54,713 nt of DNA. Source: an uncultured Oscillospiraceae bacterium (GTDB lineage Bacteria > Bacillota > Clostridia > Oscillospirales > Oscillospiraceae). The stretch is taken from contig CAJOIC010000016.1 in NCBI GenBank assembly GCA_905234625.1, positions 1 to 54,713 of the forward strand. Reading direction: 5' to 3'. Of the stretch, positions 33,966 to 40,320 are shown in pieces. Every line of letters starts with the position of its first letter. Position 1 is the stretch's first letter. Position numbers and translations under genes: made by a program. The notes beneath the pieces are model-generated. The model saw only the letters and a program-made list of their open reading frames with translations. It ran no database searches and had not been told where the DNA came from.

Positions 33966-35108
33966 TCACACGATCTCGGAATAGCTCCCCAGGTACCGGA
34001 AGGTCTCGCACAGGTGCTCGAGATCGTTCATAAGCTGGATGAACCGGGGGGAGTACACCGGGGTGTCCAGGTCGAAATAGAACATGAACTCGAAATCCCG
34101 GTCGGGCAGGGGGCGGCTCTCCAGCTTGGTGAGGTTGATGTTCAGGGCGTTGATGCGGGCCATGATGCTGTACAGCGCGCCGGGACGGTGGGGGGTGGTG
34201 AGCATGACGCTGGTCCGGTCCGCGCCGGGATAGATCTCCAGATTCTTCCCGATGCAGATGAACCGGGTGTGGTTGTTGCCCATGTCCTGGACGGCGGAGG
34301 CTAGGGTGTGCAGGCCGTAGAGCTCCGCGCAGCTCCGGGAGGACAGGGCGGCGATGTCGTTCCGGCCGGACTCCGCCACCATCTTCGCGGCCACGGCGGT
34401 GTTCTCCACGGCGGTCACCCGGATGTCGGGGTAGCCCCGCAGGAAGCCGGCGCACTGGCTGATGGCCTGCTCGTGGGAGATGATGTCCCGAATGTCCTCG
34501 ATCCGCGCGCCGGGCCGGGCGAGAAGGTTGTGGTCCACCTTCAGCCGGACGGAGCGGACGATGCTGAAATTATACTGCATCATCAGGTCGTAGATCTTAT
34601 TGACGGAGCCGGCGGTGCTGTTCTCCAGGGGCAGCACCCCGTACTGGCAGAAGCCGCCCGCGATGGCGGCGAAGACCGCTTCGAAGCTGGAGACATAGGA
34701 GATGGTGGGCTCCCGGAAGAGCTTCTCCACGGCGATCTGAGAGTAGGCCCCCTCCACGCCCTGGCAGACCACGGTGGCCTTCTCCGGAAAGAGCGCGGGA
34801 GTGATCTCCAGCGCCGCGGCGATGCGGGCGCTCTGGGGGCTGGCGCCGTTGGTCACCGTGGCCATATAGCTCCGGCTCACGTCCGAGAGCGTTGCGTACA
34901 GCACCCCGGCGTAGCTCTCCAGCTTCTCCCCCGCCTGCTCCCGGAACCGGGACCGGGCCACCCGCTCCGTATGCCGGTCGGGGATGAAGATGCCCCGGGC
35001 GGCCTTCTCCCGGGCGATATCCGCGCAGAGCTCCATCCGCCGGGCGAAGAGCTCTCCCAGCTCCCCGTCGATCTGCTCTATCTCCTCATGCAGTCGTTCC
35101 AGTTCCAT
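33966..35108 (-). CDS. pheA: Bifunctional chorismate mutase / prephenate dehydratase (P-protein)
   Basis: A 380-residue enzyme catalysing the last dedicated steps to phenylpyruvate. The chorismate mutase domain spans about residues 1-90 (LHEEIEQIDGELGELFARRMELC). The prephenate dehydratase domain follows (VCQGVEGAYSQIA, GVLPLENSTAGSV, NNHTRFICIG). The C-terminal ACT domain has GALYSIMARI and LTKLESRPLP, the ESRP motif that binds phenylalanine for feedback inhibition. The ATG at 35108 has AAAGGGG seven bases upstream. A terminator hairpin ends 20 bases before it and a Phe-rich leader peptide precedes that, so transcription is probably attenuated by phenylalanine supply. Confidence 0.97.
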   Translation of the reverse strand: MELERLHEEIEQIDGELGELFARRMELCADIAREKAARGIFIPDRHTERVARSRFREQAGEKLESYAGVLYATLSDVSRSYMATVTNGASPQSARIAAALEITPALFPEKATVVCQGVEGAYSQIAVEKLFREPTISYVSSFEAVFAAIAGGFCQYGVLPLENSTAGSVNKIYDLMMQYNFSIVRSVRLKVDHNLLARPGARIEDIRDIISHEQAISQCAGFLRGYPDIRVTAVENTAVAAKMVAESGRNDIAALSSRSCAELYGLHTLASAVQDMGNNHTRFICIGKNLEIYPGADRTSVMLTTPHRPGALYSIMARINALNINLTKLESRPLPDRDFEFMFYFDLDTPVYSPRFIQLMNDLEHLCETFRYLGSYSEIV

Positions 35109-35127: not shown

Positions 35128-35166
35128 AAAAAACGGCTGTGCGGTGGATTTCCACTGCACAGCCGT
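35128..35166 (-). terminator. Attenuator terminator in the pheA leader
   Basis: On the minus strand ACGGCTGTGCAGTGGA pairs with TCCACCGCACAGCCGT and is followed directly by a run of six T. It ends 20 bases upstream of the pheA start and 32 bases after the leader peptide stop. Confidence 0.9.
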
Positions 35167-35197
35167 AGTTTTTCGTTCCGTGACAGCCGAAATCGCT

Positions 35198-35251
35198 TTA
35201 CCTTGTCTCAGGAAAGGTAAAGAAGCGAAATTCGGCGGTAAAGAAGCGCAT
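35198..35251 (-). CDS. pheL: Phenylalanine attenuator leader peptide
   Basis: A 17-codon frame encoding MRFFTAEFRFFTFPETR, with six Phe codons, including two FF pairs. It has its own strong ribosome site (AAAGGAG, six bases before the ATG), lies 30 bases after a consensus promoter, and is followed by a terminator and then pheA. Such a peptide lets ribosomes stall when charged tRNA-Phe is scarce. The 3' part of the frame is itself in a hairpin (CTTTACCTT / AAGGTAAAG), and a longer pairing GCCGAA / TTCGGC encloses it. Product function as a peptide is not expected; the act of translating it is the signal. Confidence 0.87.
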   Translation of the reverse strand: MRFFTAEFRFFTFPETR

Positions 35252-35280
35252 GTCGTTCTCCTTTGATTTAACGTATTACC

Positions 35281-35309
35281 ATGATACACTTCTTGGCGGG
35301 CGTTGTCAA
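35281..35309 (-). promoter_or_regulatory. Sigma-A promoter of pheL-pheA
   Basis: Minus strand TTGACA (35309-35304), 17-base spacer, TATCAT (35286-35281). The -35 box contains the stop codon of pfkA. Confidence 0.9.
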
Positions 35310-36391
35310 TCCCCAAGGCAGATGCCGATGTCCCGGGCGGTCCGGATCAAGGGGTGGTCCGTGGGGAGGAATTTCGTCCGGCTGGCGGCCTCCTCCAGCG
35401 GGATGGAGGTGATCTCGCCGTTCTGCAGGGCCACCATGCGTCCGTACTGCTGACGGATGATGAGGTTCGCGGCGGCGACGCCGAAGCGGGTGGCCAGAAG
35501 CCGGTCATAGGGGCAGGGGGGACCGCCCCGCTGGTAGTGGCCGGGGACGGTGACCCGGGTCTCCTGGCCCGTCAGCCGCTCCAGCTCCGCCGCGATGGCG
35601 TAGGACACGGTGGGATGGGGGGAGTTCTCCCGGTTCTTCCGCTTGGTCTCCTCGTCAAGCTGCGCCTCGTGGATGGAGACGGCGCCCTCCGCGCAGGCCA
35701 CGATGGAGAACATCCGTCCCGTGCGCTTCCGGGCCTCGATGAGGGCGGCCGCCTTCTCGAGATCGTAGGGGATCTCCGGGATCAGGATCACGTCCGCGCC
35801 GCTGGAGATGCCGGCGCTGAGGGTCAGCCATCCGGCGTCCCGGCCCATGAGCTCCACCACGAAGATGCGCCCGTGGGAGCTGGCGGTGGAGTGGATATAG
35901 TCCATGACCTCCGTGGCGATGTTCACGGCGGTCTGGAAGCCGAAGGTGGAGTCGGTGCCGTAGATGTCGTTGTCGATGGTCTTGGGCAGGGTGATGACGT
36001 TCATCCCGGCGTCCGCGATGAGCTTCGCGCTCTTCTGGGTGCCATTGCCGCCCATGATGACCAGGCAGTCCAGGTTCAGACGGTTGTAGGTGTGGAGCAT
36101 GTCGGGGATGACGCTGTTGCCCTCATCGTCCACGATGTCCTTCCCGGGGACGTAGTTCTGGCGGGAGGTGCCCAGGATCGTGCCCCCCAGCGCCAGGATG
36201 CCGGAGAAGTCCTTCGGCTCCATGAACTTGTAGTCGCCCTCGATGAGACCCCGGTAGCCGTCGTACATACCGTAGATCTCCACATTGTCCAGCTGTTCGA
36301 ACAGGGTCTTGCCCACGCCCCGGATGGCGGCGTTCAGGCCCTGACAGTCGCCGCCGCTGGTGACCAGGGCGACGCGGGTCATTCTTTTCAA
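35306..36391 (-). CDS. pfkA: 6-phosphofructokinase
   Basis: A 361-residue glycolytic kinase forming fructose 1,6-bisphosphate. TSGGDCQGLNAAIRG is the N-terminal nucleotide loop, MGGNGTQKSA (113-122) the second, and LPKTIDNDIYGTD (135-147) carries the catalytic Asp. Gly in the GGNGT motif points to ATP rather than pyrophosphate use, while the Lys in PKTIDND is shared with the pyrophosphate and actinobacterial ATP group, so this is a mixed, group III type. The start is TTG at 36391: AAGGAGG lies eight bases before it, while the in-frame ATG at 36382 would be 17 bases away. Confidence 0.93.
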   Translation of the reverse strand: MKRMTRVALVTSGGDCQGLNAAIRGVGKTLFEQLDNVEIYGMYDGYRGLIEGDYKFMEPKDFSGILALGGTILGTSRQNYVPGKDIVDDEGNSVIPDMLHTYNRLNLDCLVIMGGNGTQKSAKLIADAGMNVITLPKTIDNDIYGTDSTFGFQTAVNIATEVMDYIHSTASSHGRIFVVELMGRDAGWLTLSAGISSGADVILIPEIPYDLEKAAALIEARKRTGRMFSIVACAEGAVSIHEAQLDEETKRKNRENSPHPTVSYAIAAELERLTGQETRVTVPGHYQRGGPPCPYDRLLATRFGVAAANLIIRQQYGRMVALQNGEITSIPLEEAASRTKFLPTDHPLIRTARDIGICLGD

Positions 36392-36565: not shown

Positions 36566-37360
36566 TCACGCGATATCGGTGATGCAGTGACGGGGGCAGA
36601 CGTCGGCGCAATGGCCGCAGTGCACGCACTTCGACTGGTCGATGACGGCCAGGAAGTTGTCCACGGTGATGGCGTCCGCGGGGCACTCGCGCTTGCACTT
36701 CTGGCAGGCGATGCAGCCGAAGTCACAGTACTTGGTGACGGCGGGGCCCTTGTCGGTGGAGCTGCAGCCCACGATGTCGGTGGAGTCCCCGGGGACCTTG
36801 GTGATGAGGTTCTTCGGGCAGGCCTCGGCGCACTTCATGCAGCCGACGCACTTGGAGCGGTCCACCTGGGCGATGCCGTCCACGATGTGCATGGCGTCGA
36901 AGGGGCAGGCGGCGACGCAGTCGCCGAAGCCCATGCAGCCGGCGGCGCAGACGTTCGCGCCGCTGCCGCCGCCCAAACGGGTGGCCGCGATGCAGGAATC
37001 AAGGCCCTGATAATCGAACTTCTGCTTGGTGTGGCCGCAGGTGCCGGAGCAGCGGACGAAGGCGTAGTACTTCTCTCCCGCGCCGGCGGAGACGCCCATG
37101 ATCTCGGAGATCTTCGCGGCGGCCTCGGCGCCGCCGGGGACGCAGGCGTTGGTGGGAGCCTCGCCCCGGGCGACGGCGGCGGCATAGCCCGCGCAGCCGG
37201 GATAGCCGCAGGCGCCGCAGTTGGCGCCGGCGCAGGCGGCCAGGACGGCCTCCTCCTTGGGGTCCACCTCCACGGCGAAGACCTTGCCCGCGATGGCGAG
37301 CAGGATGCCGAACAGGAGGCCCAGGGCGCCCAGGATCAGGATAGCATAGATAACAGTCAT
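36566..37360 (-). CDS. rnfB: Rnf complex subunit RnfB (ferredoxin-oxidising iron-sulfur protein)
   Basis: A 264-residue membrane-anchored iron-sulfur protein that takes electrons from reduced ferredoxin. One N-terminal transmembrane helix (about 1-25) is followed by the four-Cys domain ANCGACGYPGCAGYA and by several ferredoxin-type CxxCxxCxxxCP clusters, including CVGCMKCAEACP and CVHCGHCADVCP, plus the CMGFGDCVAACP set. It is the last gene of rnfCDGEAB, and a terminator follows it. Confidence 0.97.
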   Translation of the reverse strand: MTVIYAILILGALGLLFGILLAIAGKVFAVEVDPKEEAVLAACAGANCGACGYPGCAGYAAAVARGEAPTNACVPGGAEAAAKISEIMGVSAGAGEKYYAFVRCSGTCGHTKQKFDYQGLDSCIAATRLGGGSGANVCAAGCMGFGDCVAACPFDAMHIVDGIAQVDRSKCVGCMKCAEACPKNLITKVPGDSTDIVGCSSTDKGPAVTKYCDFGCIACQKCKRECPADAITVDNFLAVIDQSKCVHCGHCADVCPRHCITDIA

Positions 37361-37376
37361 TGTCTCAAAGCCCTCC

Positions 37377-37961
37377 TTACATGATCTTCATGCCGGAGAA
37401 GCCCATGAACGCCAGGGCGAACAGAGCCGCGGACACAAGGCAGATGGCAAAGCCCTCGAAGGCCTTGGGATAGTCGGCGAACTCCAGACGCTCCCGGACG
37501 CTGGCGAACAACACGATGGCCAGGGTGAAGCCCACGCCGCCGGTGAAGCCGTAGACGACGCTCTCCAGGAAGTTGTAGTTGTTCTGGGTGTTCAGAAGGA
37601 CGACGCCCAGGACCGCGCAGTTGGTGGTGATGAGGGGCAGGAAGATGCCCATGGCCGAGTACAGGGAGGGGATCGATTTTTTCAGGAACATCTCCACGAA
37701 CTGCACGAGGACGGCGATGACCAGGATGTAGGCCACCGTCTGCATGAACTTCAGACCCAGGGGGATGAGAAGGTAGGTGTTGATGACCCAGCAGATGGCG
37801 GAGGCCATGGTCATGACGAAGATGACGGCCACGCTCATGCCGGTGGCGGTGCTCATCTTGTTGGACACGCCCAGGAAGGGGCACAGGCCCAGGAACTGGG
37901 AGAAGATAAAGTTGTTGACGAGAATCGCTCCCAGGGAAATGGATACGATCGAAGCAAGCAT
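37377..37961 (-). CDS. rnfA: Rnf complex subunit RnfA
   Basis: A 194-residue membrane protein with six transmembrane helices, homologous to Nqr[21 protein letters not shown] near the N-terminus and [12 protein letters not shown] contain the conserved membrane Cys residues that hold an intramembrane iron-sulfur centre with RnfE. It should be part of the ion-translocating core. Its start overlaps the rnfE stop by one base. Confidence 0.97.
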
Positions 37962-38641
37962 TATTCGTCATCCTCCTTTTCTTTCGCGGCCCGGCGCGCC
38001 TCACGCTTGGAGAGCATGTGCTGCATGAGCGCCATGAGAAGACCAAGGGTCAGGAAGCCGCCGAAGGGCAGCACCAGGATGCCCGCCGCGTACTCCTGGG
38101 GGAAGATGCGGATGCCGGCGCCGGTGCCGTCCAGGGTGAAGAAGCTGGTGGCGCCGTTCAGGAGACCGCCGCCGATGGTGCCGGAGCCCAGAAGCTCACG
38201 GAACAGGCACATGCAGATCAGCACCACGGTGTAGCCCAGGCCCTGGAACACGCCGTCGAAGAAGGAATCCTTGACGCTGTTCTTGGAGCTGAAGGCCTCC
38301 GCGCGGCCGATGATGATGCAGTTGACGACGATCAGCGGGATGAACACGCCCAAGGCGTTTGACAGGGCGGGGATGAAGGCCTGCAGCAGCAGGTCCACGA
38401 TGGTGACGAAGCCCGCGATGACCACCACGAAGATGGCCAGACGCACCTGCTCGGGGATGATCTTCCGGATGAGGGAGACCACCACGTTGCAGCAGGTCAG
38501 AATGATGAGGACGGACAGGCCCATGCCGATGCCGTTGAAGAGCGTGGTGGAGATCGCCATGGTGGCGCACAGGCCGATCTGCTGGACGAGGACGGGGTTG
38601 TTGGTGAACACGCCCTCAAAGATCTGTTGTTTTCTGTTCAT
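37961..38641 (-). CDS. rnfE: Rnf complex subunit RnfE
   Basis: A 226-residue membrane subunit with six helices, homologous to NqrD and paralogous to RnfA. The [15 protein letters not shown] segment and [14 protein letters not shown] hold the conserved Cys residues facing RnfA. The hydrophilic C-terminus ([16 protein letters not shown]) is cytosolic. It lies 12 bases after rnfG and overlaps rnfA by one base. Confidence 0.97.
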
Positions 38642-38653
38642 TTCACTACCTCC

Positions 38654-39313
38654 TTAGCCCATGGACGGCTCGCCGCTGGGGAGCGTGACATAGCCTGGAC
38701 CCGCGTCAGCAGGGACAACGACAGCCTCCGACGACGGACCGACGGCCTCCACAACGGGAGCGCTCTGCGCGCCGCCCAGGGCCTGGCAGGCCGCGATGGC
38801 GGCGGTGACGCCCTTGCAGACGGCCTTGGAGGTGATGGTCGCGCCGGAGATGGCGTCGATCTCGCCGCCCTCCTTGGTGACCGCCACGGTGCCGCTCTGG
38901 CCGACGAACTGGGCGCGGAAGGCCTCGCCCTTCTCGCTCTGCTGGCCCGCCACGGCGCCGAGGCCCGCGGTCTCGCTGGACTCGGTGATGGAGATGCCGG
39001 TGCAGGCATAGTCGGAGCTGACGCCCACCATCATGGTGATGAGGCCCTGGGAGCCGGACTCGGTGACCCGGACGACCCAGCCGCCGCCCTCGGCGGCGTA
39101 GATGGCCTCCACCTCGCCGTCATCCTCCGCGCCGGTGTCGGTATAGGCCGCGGCGGGCAGGACGGACTGCATGGCGCCCCGCATGGTCTCCTCCGCGATG
39201 GCGGCGATCCGTCCCGCGGTGGCCAGGTTCACGAGGCCCAGGATGAAAGCCGCGGCGGCAGCTACCATGAGGAGCATGAGGCCGGGCTTGAACATCTGAA
39301 GAGTCTTGTTCAT
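38654..39313 (-). CDS. rnfG: Rnf complex subunit RnfG (covalent flavin protein)
   Basis: A 219-residue protein with one N-terminal transmembrane helix (about 8-30) and an extracytoplasmic FMN-binding domain. DAISGATITSKAV contains the SGAT motif whose last Thr is flavinylated by ApbE. No apbE gene is seen in this window. The C-terminus is Pro/Gly/Val rich. It overlaps rnfD by four bases (ATGA). Confidence 0.95.
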   Translation of the reverse strand: MNKTLQMFKPGLMLLMVAAAAAFILGLVNLATAGRIAAIAEETMRGAMQSVLPAAAYTDTGAEDDGEVEAIYAAEGGGWVVRVTESGSQGLITMMVGVSSDYACTGISITESSETAGLGAVAGQQSEKGEAFRAQFVGQSGTVAVTKEGGEIDAISGATITSKAVCKGVTAAIAACQALGGAQSAPVVEAVGPSSEAVVVPADAGPGYVTLPSGEPSMG

Positions 39314-40320
39314 TCCGCCGCCTCCTTCTTCTTGCCGAGCCTGGCGAAGAGATCACGGATGGGACGCTTGGGCTCCGTGCCGAAGCGCCGGGGGGCCGTG
39401 TTCTTGTCGATCATCCAGACCGTCAGGTTCATGATGAGGATGGCATAGGAGACGCCCTCGGGATAGGAGCCGAAGTAGCGGATCAGGACGGTCAGCAGGC
39501 CGCAGCCCACGCCGAAGATGATCTGGCCCTTGGGGGTGACGGGGCTGGTGCAGTAGTCCGTCGCCATGAAGATGGCGCCCAGCAGGAGACCGCCGGAGAA
39601 GACGTTCTGCAGCATCCACATAAAGTGGGGGTTGCCCCGGGAGAAGATGAGGGTGATCACGGCCACGGTGCCGATGAAGCTCAGGGGGATGCGCAGGGAG
39701 ATGACCTTGCGGTACACGAGCCACGCGCCGCCCAGGAGCAGGGCGACGGCGCTGATCTCGCCGATGGAGCCGCCCACGTTGCCGATGAGCATGGCCCCCA
39801 GGGAGACGCTGGAGAGAGCGCCGCCGCTGAGGCTGGCCAGGGGCGTGGCGTAGGTGGCGGCGTCCACGTTCTGGAAGCTCGCGGGCATCCAGTTCGTCAT
39901 GAGCACGGCATAGGAGGCCAGCAGGAAGGCGCGGCCCGCCAGCGCCGGGTTCAGGAAATTCTTGCCGATGCCGCCGAAGAGCTGCTTCACCACTACGATG
40001 GCGAACAGGGCGCCGATGATGGGCAGCCACCAGGGGACCGTGGGGGGCAGGCAGAAGGCCATGAGGACGCCGGTGACCACGGCGGAGAGATCGCCGTAGG
40101 TGTCGGGCTTTTTCATGAGCTTCCGGTAGCCGAACTCGAAGAGCACGCAGCTGGCCACGGACACGGCCGTCACCATGATGGGACGCCAGCCGAAGAAGAT
40201 GATGGAGGCCAGGAAGGCCGGCGCCAGGGCGATGAGCACGTCCAGCATGATGACCTTGGTGTCTCTCGGGGTGCGGATATGGGGGGAGGAGGATACGATA
40301 AGGTTTCTCTGCTCGTTCAT
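39310..40320 (-). CDS. rnfD: Rnf complex subunit RnfD
   Basis: A 336-residue membrane subunit homologous to NqrB, with about nine or ten helices. SSPHIRTPRDTKVIMLDVLIALAPA at the N-terminus and KQLFGGIGKNFLNPALAGRAFLL are conserved; the latter precedes the flavinylation region seen here as TPLASLSGGALSS. The expected covalent-FMN Thr motif is not obvious from reading alone. It is an ion-translocating core subunit, one base after rnfC. Confidence 0.96.
   Translation of the reverse strand: MNEQRNLIVSSSPHIRTPRDTKVIMLDVLIALAPAFLASIIFFGWRPIMVTAVSVASCVLFEFGYRKLMKKPDTYGDLSAVVTGVLMAFCLPPTVPWWLPIIGALFAIVVVKQLFGGIGKNFLNPALAGRAFLLASYAVLMTNWMPASFQNVDAATYATPLASLSGGALSSVSLGAMLIGNVGGSIGEISAVALLLGGAWLVYRKVISLRIPLSFIGTVAVITLIFSRGNPHFMWMLQNVFSGGLLLGAIFMATDYCTSPVTPKGQIIFGVGCGLLTVLIRYFGSYPEGVSYAILIMNLTVWMIDKNTAPRRFGTEPKRPIRDLFARLGKKKEAAE

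Follow-up and report, generated by a model that had tools for sequence, protein, structure and literature searches.

A putative phenylalanine attenuator upstream of pheA in a Clostridia genome and its Phe/Tyr-codon counterpart before the aro operon

How is pheA controlled in this uncultured member of the Oscillospiraceae? Aromatic amino acid genes of low-GC Gram-positives are usually described as T-box controlled. For the 54,713-nucleotide stretch of DNA analysed here (the window), the initial annotation had instead proposed ribosome-mediated attenuation by a translated, Phe-rich leader. Comparison with related genomes supports this reading, since Phe-rich leaders are conserved before pheA, the terminator covaries and an antiterminator could be assigned, and we are confident that a ribosome-mediated transcription attenuator is the best explanation of the locus.

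Architecture of the pheA leader

A consensus promoter, a ribosome-binding site and a 17-residue frame with six Phe codons lie in the order first proposed on the minus strand between 35309 and 35108 (Table 1), and the gene that follows was rightly called pheA, as shown by its CM_2 and PDT domains in Pfam. The promoter matches the consensus at 11 of 12 positions, and its -35 box overlaps the stop codon of the upstream gene pfk. It is one of three promoter-like sites in 2.5 kb, where 0.5 would be expected. The strong terminator that had been claimed between leader and pheA is also in place, with hairpin, U tract and a gap of 19 bases between the end of the tract (35128) and the pheA ATG (35108). 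A simple terminator scan alone was not significant (1 found, 1.3 expected); the folding of the leader RNA was clearly stronger than that of shuffled sequences (z -6.3, 0 of 200 shuffles as low). The scan also reports the hairpin at 35133-35166 on the plus strand, where a T run is present too, so that it may terminate transcription in both directions. Further upstream, beyond pfk, the window carries genes for Rnf-type electron transport (36566-40320, minus strand), and the gene directly before pheA in some relatives is ferredoxin-like and, as judged by eye, probably rnfB.

Table 1. Features of the pheA leader and its neighbours in the window
Feature	Position	Strand	Details
Sigma-A type promoter TTGACA-N17-TATCAT	35281..35309	-	TTGACA 35309-35304, 17-nt spacer, TATCAT 35286-35281
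Ribosome-binding site AAGGAG of the leader frame	35258..35263	-	
Leader peptide frame MRFFTAEFRFFTFPETR	35198..35251	-	17 residues, six Phe codons, stop TAA
Leader (1:2) hairpin	35186..35236	-	arms 35236-35216 and 35202-35186; predicted for the ribosome-free leader
Antiterminator 5' strand (putative) GCGATTTCGGCTGTCAC	35180..35196	-	starts one base past the leader stop codon
Antiterminator 3' strand (putative) GTGCAGTGGAAATC	35147..35160	-	3' half of the terminator 5' arm and terminator loop
Intrinsic terminator hairpin	35133..35166	-	15 bp, 4-nt loop
Terminator U tract	35128..35133	-	
pheA, chorismate mutase-prephenate dehydratase, regulated gene	33966..35108	-	Pfam CM_2 and PDT
pfk (phosphofructokinase), upstream neighbour, outside the switch	35306..36391	-	

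The codon content of the leader sets it apart from its surroundings. The window leader uses four TTT and two TTC codons for Phe, a TTT share of 4/6 that compares with 3/75 in six genes of the window. A promoter and a Shine-Dalgarno-like sequence accompany all 20 full pheA leaders (the window and 19 relatives). These leaders retain the Phe codons, with four to seven each (mean 6.1), and are nearly devoid of Tyr codons (mean 0.15; none in 17 of the 20). As leaders were chosen by a script as the most F/Y-rich short frame, their codon content is biased upward, and the other reading frames served as controls: Phe codons make up 0.36 of the codons in frame and 0.06-0.07 in the other frames. Control windows and shuffles played the same role in the survey of aroF loci described below. 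The counts leave out L034, which is cut by a contig end, and L176, a pheA leader that belongs to our aro set.

Alternative pairings and the proposed switch

Leader hairpin and terminator are both maintained in the relatives. Together they are paired in 95.0% of alignment cells, compared with 26-54% when the strands are slid against each other, and contain 19 doubly changed cells against a shuffled mean of 5.7 (0 of 500 shuffles as high); counted as pairs, the five doubly changed ones were matched by 30 of 500 shuffles. For the terminator alone, an alignment of 48 pheA and aroF leaders gave 99.8% pairing and 22 doubly changed cells (0 of 500 shuffles), with three doubly changed pairs, a number equalled by 148 of 500 shuffles. 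The terminator is thus both kept and covarying. The outer helix of the leader hairpin covaries among the relatives, and the window's own outer arm differs.

The antiterminator, which had been left open, can now be assigned with the help of covariation. The candidate is the stretch that follows the leader stop codon, and its predicted partner is the 3' half of the terminator 5' arm together with the terminator loop. In the window this duplex has a calculated energy of -18.8 kcal/mol. In a swap test with 80 leaders the native mean was -18.9 kcal/mol, compared with -14.4 (sd 0.37) after permutation, and none of 5000 permutations was as low; the same held for the 21 pheA leaders alone (-20.8 against -17.9 kcal/mol; 0/5000) and for the aro set of 59 rows, which includes the pheA leader L176 (-18.2 against -14.9 kcal/mol; 0/5000), these and the covariation statistics of the antiterminator being computed without regard to relatedness among the leaders. 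Omitted from the swap, occupancy and codon sets were L220 (no leader) and L168 (same leader as L167) from the aro rows, as well as L175 and L186, for which the wrong frame or tract had been picked; L233, whose terminator was not found, was left out of the swap and occupancy tests. In the 48-row alignment, the seven antiterminator pairs are formed in 94.7% of cells, against 20-73% in slid controls. They include 21 doubly changed cells (0 of 500 shuffles), whereas counting doubly changed pairs gave three, equalled by 219 of 500 shuffles. The exchanges can be followed from GAUUUC/GAAAUC in the window to GAUCUC/GAGAUC in L042 and CGUUUCC/GGAAGCG in L140.

Two other candidates for the antiterminator were rejected. 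A pairing limited to the terminator 5' arm had a mean z of 0.0 against shuffles, with 0 of 21 leaders below p 0.1; double changes were lacking when only the pheA leaders were considered, and native and swapped combinations were barely apart (8.6 versus 8.0 paired nucleotides). The resemblance of segment 2 to the terminator arm, also visible in the 82.5% pairing obtained with a slide of +3, led us to consider leader segment 1 as a partner of that arm. This pairing was dropped since a stalled ribosome would cover segment 1.

The pairings suggest the following switch. Transcription would start from the promoter at 35281-35309, and a ribosome would translate the leader. With ample Phe-tRNA, the ribosome would reach the stop codon and its footprint would cover 35196-35180; the terminator would then fold and keep RNA polymerase out of pheA. 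If Phe-tRNA is scarce, the ribosome would stall on a Phe codon and leave 35196-35180 free. This segment would pair with the loop and the 3' half of the terminator 5' arm while the 3' arm is still to be made, and RNA polymerase would then read into pheA. When the leader is not translated, the leader hairpin would compete for 35196-35180, and termination is the likely default. Stalling, the kinetics and the response to Phe are the parts of this scheme that we infer.

Structure models agree with this scheme as far as the early, incomplete transcript is considered. Before the 3' arm is made, the modelled fraction of arm and loop paired upstream in the window is 0.90 for a ribosome placed on the last Phe codon, 0.39 for one placed on the stop codon and 0.72 for naked RNA. 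The corresponding means are 0.87 and 0.38 for 20 pheA leaders, and 0.78 (stalled) and 0.35 (stop) for the 59 rows of the aro set. In the full-length equilibrium model, the terminator dominates on average in every ribosome state. Even with a stalled ribosome its mean occupancy is 0.82 in 20 pheA leaders (range 0.01-1.00; window 0.89) and 0.94 in the aro set (lowest 0.36). Since the terminator usually wins at equilibrium even under stalling, the switch would have to be kinetic and operate during transcription, which is when the choice of an attenuator is usually made.

Leaders in related genomes and before aroF

A PheA match is present in 34 of the 35 genomes of the genus, G130 having only a short chorismate mutase hit. 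A covariance model (R1) built from 21 pheA leaders places a match immediately before pheA in 22 of the 35 genomes, most of them by construction, as the training leaders come from these genomes or their named counterparts. The leader is absent from 10 of the 32 genomes that could be tested; the remaining three are G113 and G130 (no full pheA) and G103, whose contig ends 24 nt upstream. In L118/L036, 24 nt are present upstream, which puts them outside the testable set. The expectation that relatives keep the leader is borne out by the 22 genomes and by the 20 full leaders with their four to seven Phe codons; the ten genomes speak against it. Among the latter, L130, L131, L132 and L137 carry a promoter directly before pheA and no leader, as if freed from attenuation. 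The nearest relative by pheA, L113, is also without a leader, and pfk ends just before its pheA. A pheA tree, computed by a quick method for 29 labelled genus rows, needs five changes, a pattern that would fit one ancestral presence of the leader followed by five losses; this tree places L118, which belongs to the genus, in the group of other genera, and nine proteins were not picked up.

These data bear on the idea that the hairpin does no more than terminate pfk transcription, with pheA unregulated or separately promoted and the short frame a by-product. Such an arrangement might be expected from the position of pfk, which ends just upstream, and resembles L041 and L043, where a plain hairpin with a T run precedes pheA without any leader. 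However, the promoter sits between pfk and the leader, 22 genomes retain leader and terminator despite differing sequence upstream of the promoter, and the segment after the leader stop codon covaries with the terminator. We therefore regard a mere pfk terminator as very improbable and retain attenuation as the explanation.

Model R1 also finds a second site, located before aroF, in 31 of the 35 genus genomes (E up to 0.1; position confirmed by script for 30 and from its frames for G114). In the genome of the window this site lies on contig C2 (44935-45087, E 3.9e-7) and encodes the peptide MRFMTFGSAYTYSYYFTTK. The operon behind it consists, according to Pfam, of aroF (DAHP synthase), tyrA, aroB, aroA, aroC, a free-standing chorismate mutase and a shikimate dehydrogenase-shikimate kinase fusion. 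Its tyrA (L191:6816-7415, minus strand) encodes 200 residues with the nucleotide-binding domain only, which may point to a broken gene or to an assembly fault. A weak third match in the same genome (G000:C48:9724-9840, plus strand, E 0.014) is probably due to chance, and no Phe leader was seen upstream of pheS in this genome.

The aroF leaders share with the pheA leaders the element after the stop codon and its pairing with terminator arm and loop, and differ from them in codon content: 29 aroF leaders of the genus contain on average 4.2 Phe and 4.6 Tyr codons. Leaders of this type also occur in other genera. Of 300 genomes sampled from the family, 71 had a match at the loose cut of E up to 0.01. 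Thirty leaders from other genera, taken from model matches as the most F/Y-rich frames, average 4.7 Phe and 3.4 Tyr codons, with at least two of each in 26 of the 30. In samples of the order and class, a short frame F/Y-rich enough to reach the chosen score precedes aroF in 42 of 58 best-match loci and is found in 3 of 57 control windows. In 31 of the 58, the frame outscores shuffles at p 0.02 and its stop codon lies 60-180 nt upstream; being the best aroF matches, the 58 loci lean towards near relatives, and one of them, L252, is from the own family.

The comparison of pheA and aro leaders is also informative about the way in which the peptide might act. Most pheA leaders share a well conserved block, FTAEFxFFTF, as would be expected if the nascent peptide itself arrested the ribosome, perhaps by sensing a free metabolite and not through slow decoding of Phe codons. 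Part of this conservation is explained by RNA pairing: in four rows, a Thr-to-Ala change in the leader coincides with a compensating substitution on the other side of the hairpin (A-U to G-C), although the position is unpaired in 7 of 21 rows and the Ala change in L124 is unmatched. Furthermore, the aro leaders keep their F and Y content but not the order of these residues, which fits the counting of codons and not a fixed motif. An arrest peptide is thus improbable, and codon-dependent attenuation remains the preferred reading.

Control of pheA by a T-box or a metabolite-binding riboswitch deserved attention, as T-box matches do exist in the own genome. There are two, both full length and below the Rfam cut-off, at L001 1501-1759 (contig C14), before a PLP-dependent trpB-like enzyme, and at L002 1501-1769 (contig C20), before trpE. 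However, the search of the window for Rfam families, the gammaproteobacterial Phe leader among them, gave 0 matches at cut-off, and both T-boxes precede genes other than pheA. The interval between promoter and terminator also holds little besides the coding hairpin and the antiterminator strand. A T-box at the pheA locus, which had been named as a possible refutation of the attenuator, was rejected on these grounds, and we consider this class of explanation the least probable, with hardly any credence left for it. Five loci with aro leaders gave four Rfam matches at E up to 1 and none at cut-off. In this genome, the T-boxes precede Trp genes and the Phe/Tyr branch uses leaders.

Origin of the pheA leader and relation to known systems

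The genomic position of pheA differs between the genus and the rest of the family. In 27 of 28 best-match loci of other genera, pheA comes immediately after aroC, and the same aroC-pheA motif is found in 44 of 55 loci from named organisms (L090 and L071 skipped). In the genus this arrangement occurs in 0 of 50 loci, drawn from two collections that overlap in species. There, pheA stands outside the aro operon with its own leader, nearly free of Tyr codons. At the position of the other genera's pheA, the aro operon of the own genome carries the free-standing chorismate mutase (CM_2, 92 residues; L191:3034-3309, minus strand, contig C2). This protein shares up to 43% identity (up to 48% for its G114 counterpart) with the in-operon PheA of other genera, compared with 23-35% for the genus's own PheA (matches over 80 residues).

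The leaders themselves show a related pattern. For 17 of the 21 pheA leaders, the best-matching aro leader comes from their own genus. The window leader scores 53 against aro leaders of the genus and 50 against others, a slight preference, and its score of 22 against the aro leader of its own genome is poor; both weigh against a copying event. Probably, the pheA leader is a copy of the Phe and Tyr leader of the aro operon that was kept when pheA left the operon and was re-coded mainly to Phe. Re-coding of a copy is the simplest reading of these comparisons, not a proven one, and the direction of copying is what we infer from them. We lean towards a broader scenario of subfunctionalisation, in which a Phe/Tyr leader present in much of the class controls the aro genes, pheA exits with a copy that loses its Tyr codons, and the chorismate mutase stays behind. 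In G139, which belongs to another genus of the family, a Phe-type leader (L176, MKSNIFAAEFTFFYFGHTR) lies directly before pheA. The split between pheA and aroF leaders may therefore be older than the genus.

The mechanism as such is already known. As described in PMC11802643, the E. coli pheL-pheA system has a short Phe-containing leader and is controlled by Phe-tRNA through attenuation. The locus studied here is similar in having a Phe leader before the same gene and in the proposed mechanism; it differs in its host, a member of the Clostridia, and in the absence of an Rfam model match. The 3' strand of the window antiterminator takes in the terminator loop, a feature set here beside a description of E. 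coli pheL only. For the aro leaders, the closest parallel is aroR-aroF of C. glutamicum, with a Phe-Tyr-Phe run that is said to respond to Phe and not to Tyr (PMC11802643, on Neshat 2014). Both have a leader with Phe and Tyr codons before a DAHP synthase operon; unlike the actinobacterial aroR, as it is summarised there, the Clostridia leaders contain several Tyr as well as Phe codons and have a Phe-type relative on pheA. The uORFC-13-1 motif, reported before aroF only from Acholeplasma and environmental sequences and coding for at least one Phe (PMC8632094), resembles them in combining a short frame, a U run that codes for Phe and a terminator before aroF; the description of the motif in that source mentions neither Tyr codons nor a copy on pheA.

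Translated leaders that replace T-boxes are known from Firmicutes for other amino acids and genes, namely the Leu-rich attenuator of ilv-leu in S. aureus, as reported in PMC5794164, and His leaders in Bacillus, Peptostreptococcaceae and Erysipelotrichales, as reported in PMC2965389 and PMC9413887. In the literature searched, which mostly did not include subscription papers, we found no description of a Phe or Phe/Tyr leader in Clostridia.

The interest of the locus lies in the widespread Phe/Tyr leader and its Phe-type offshoot. In many genomes of the class sample, the shikimate operon appears to be under the control of a codon-counting leader, with no Rfam match at the loci tested. With a two-amino-acid leader and its one-amino-acid relative in one genome, a change in attenuator specificity becomes testable by codon exchange. 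If subfunctionalisation is the true course of events, a single genome would combine a Tyr and Phe sensor for the common and Tyr branch, a Phe sensor for the Phe branch, and T-boxes before the Trp genes.
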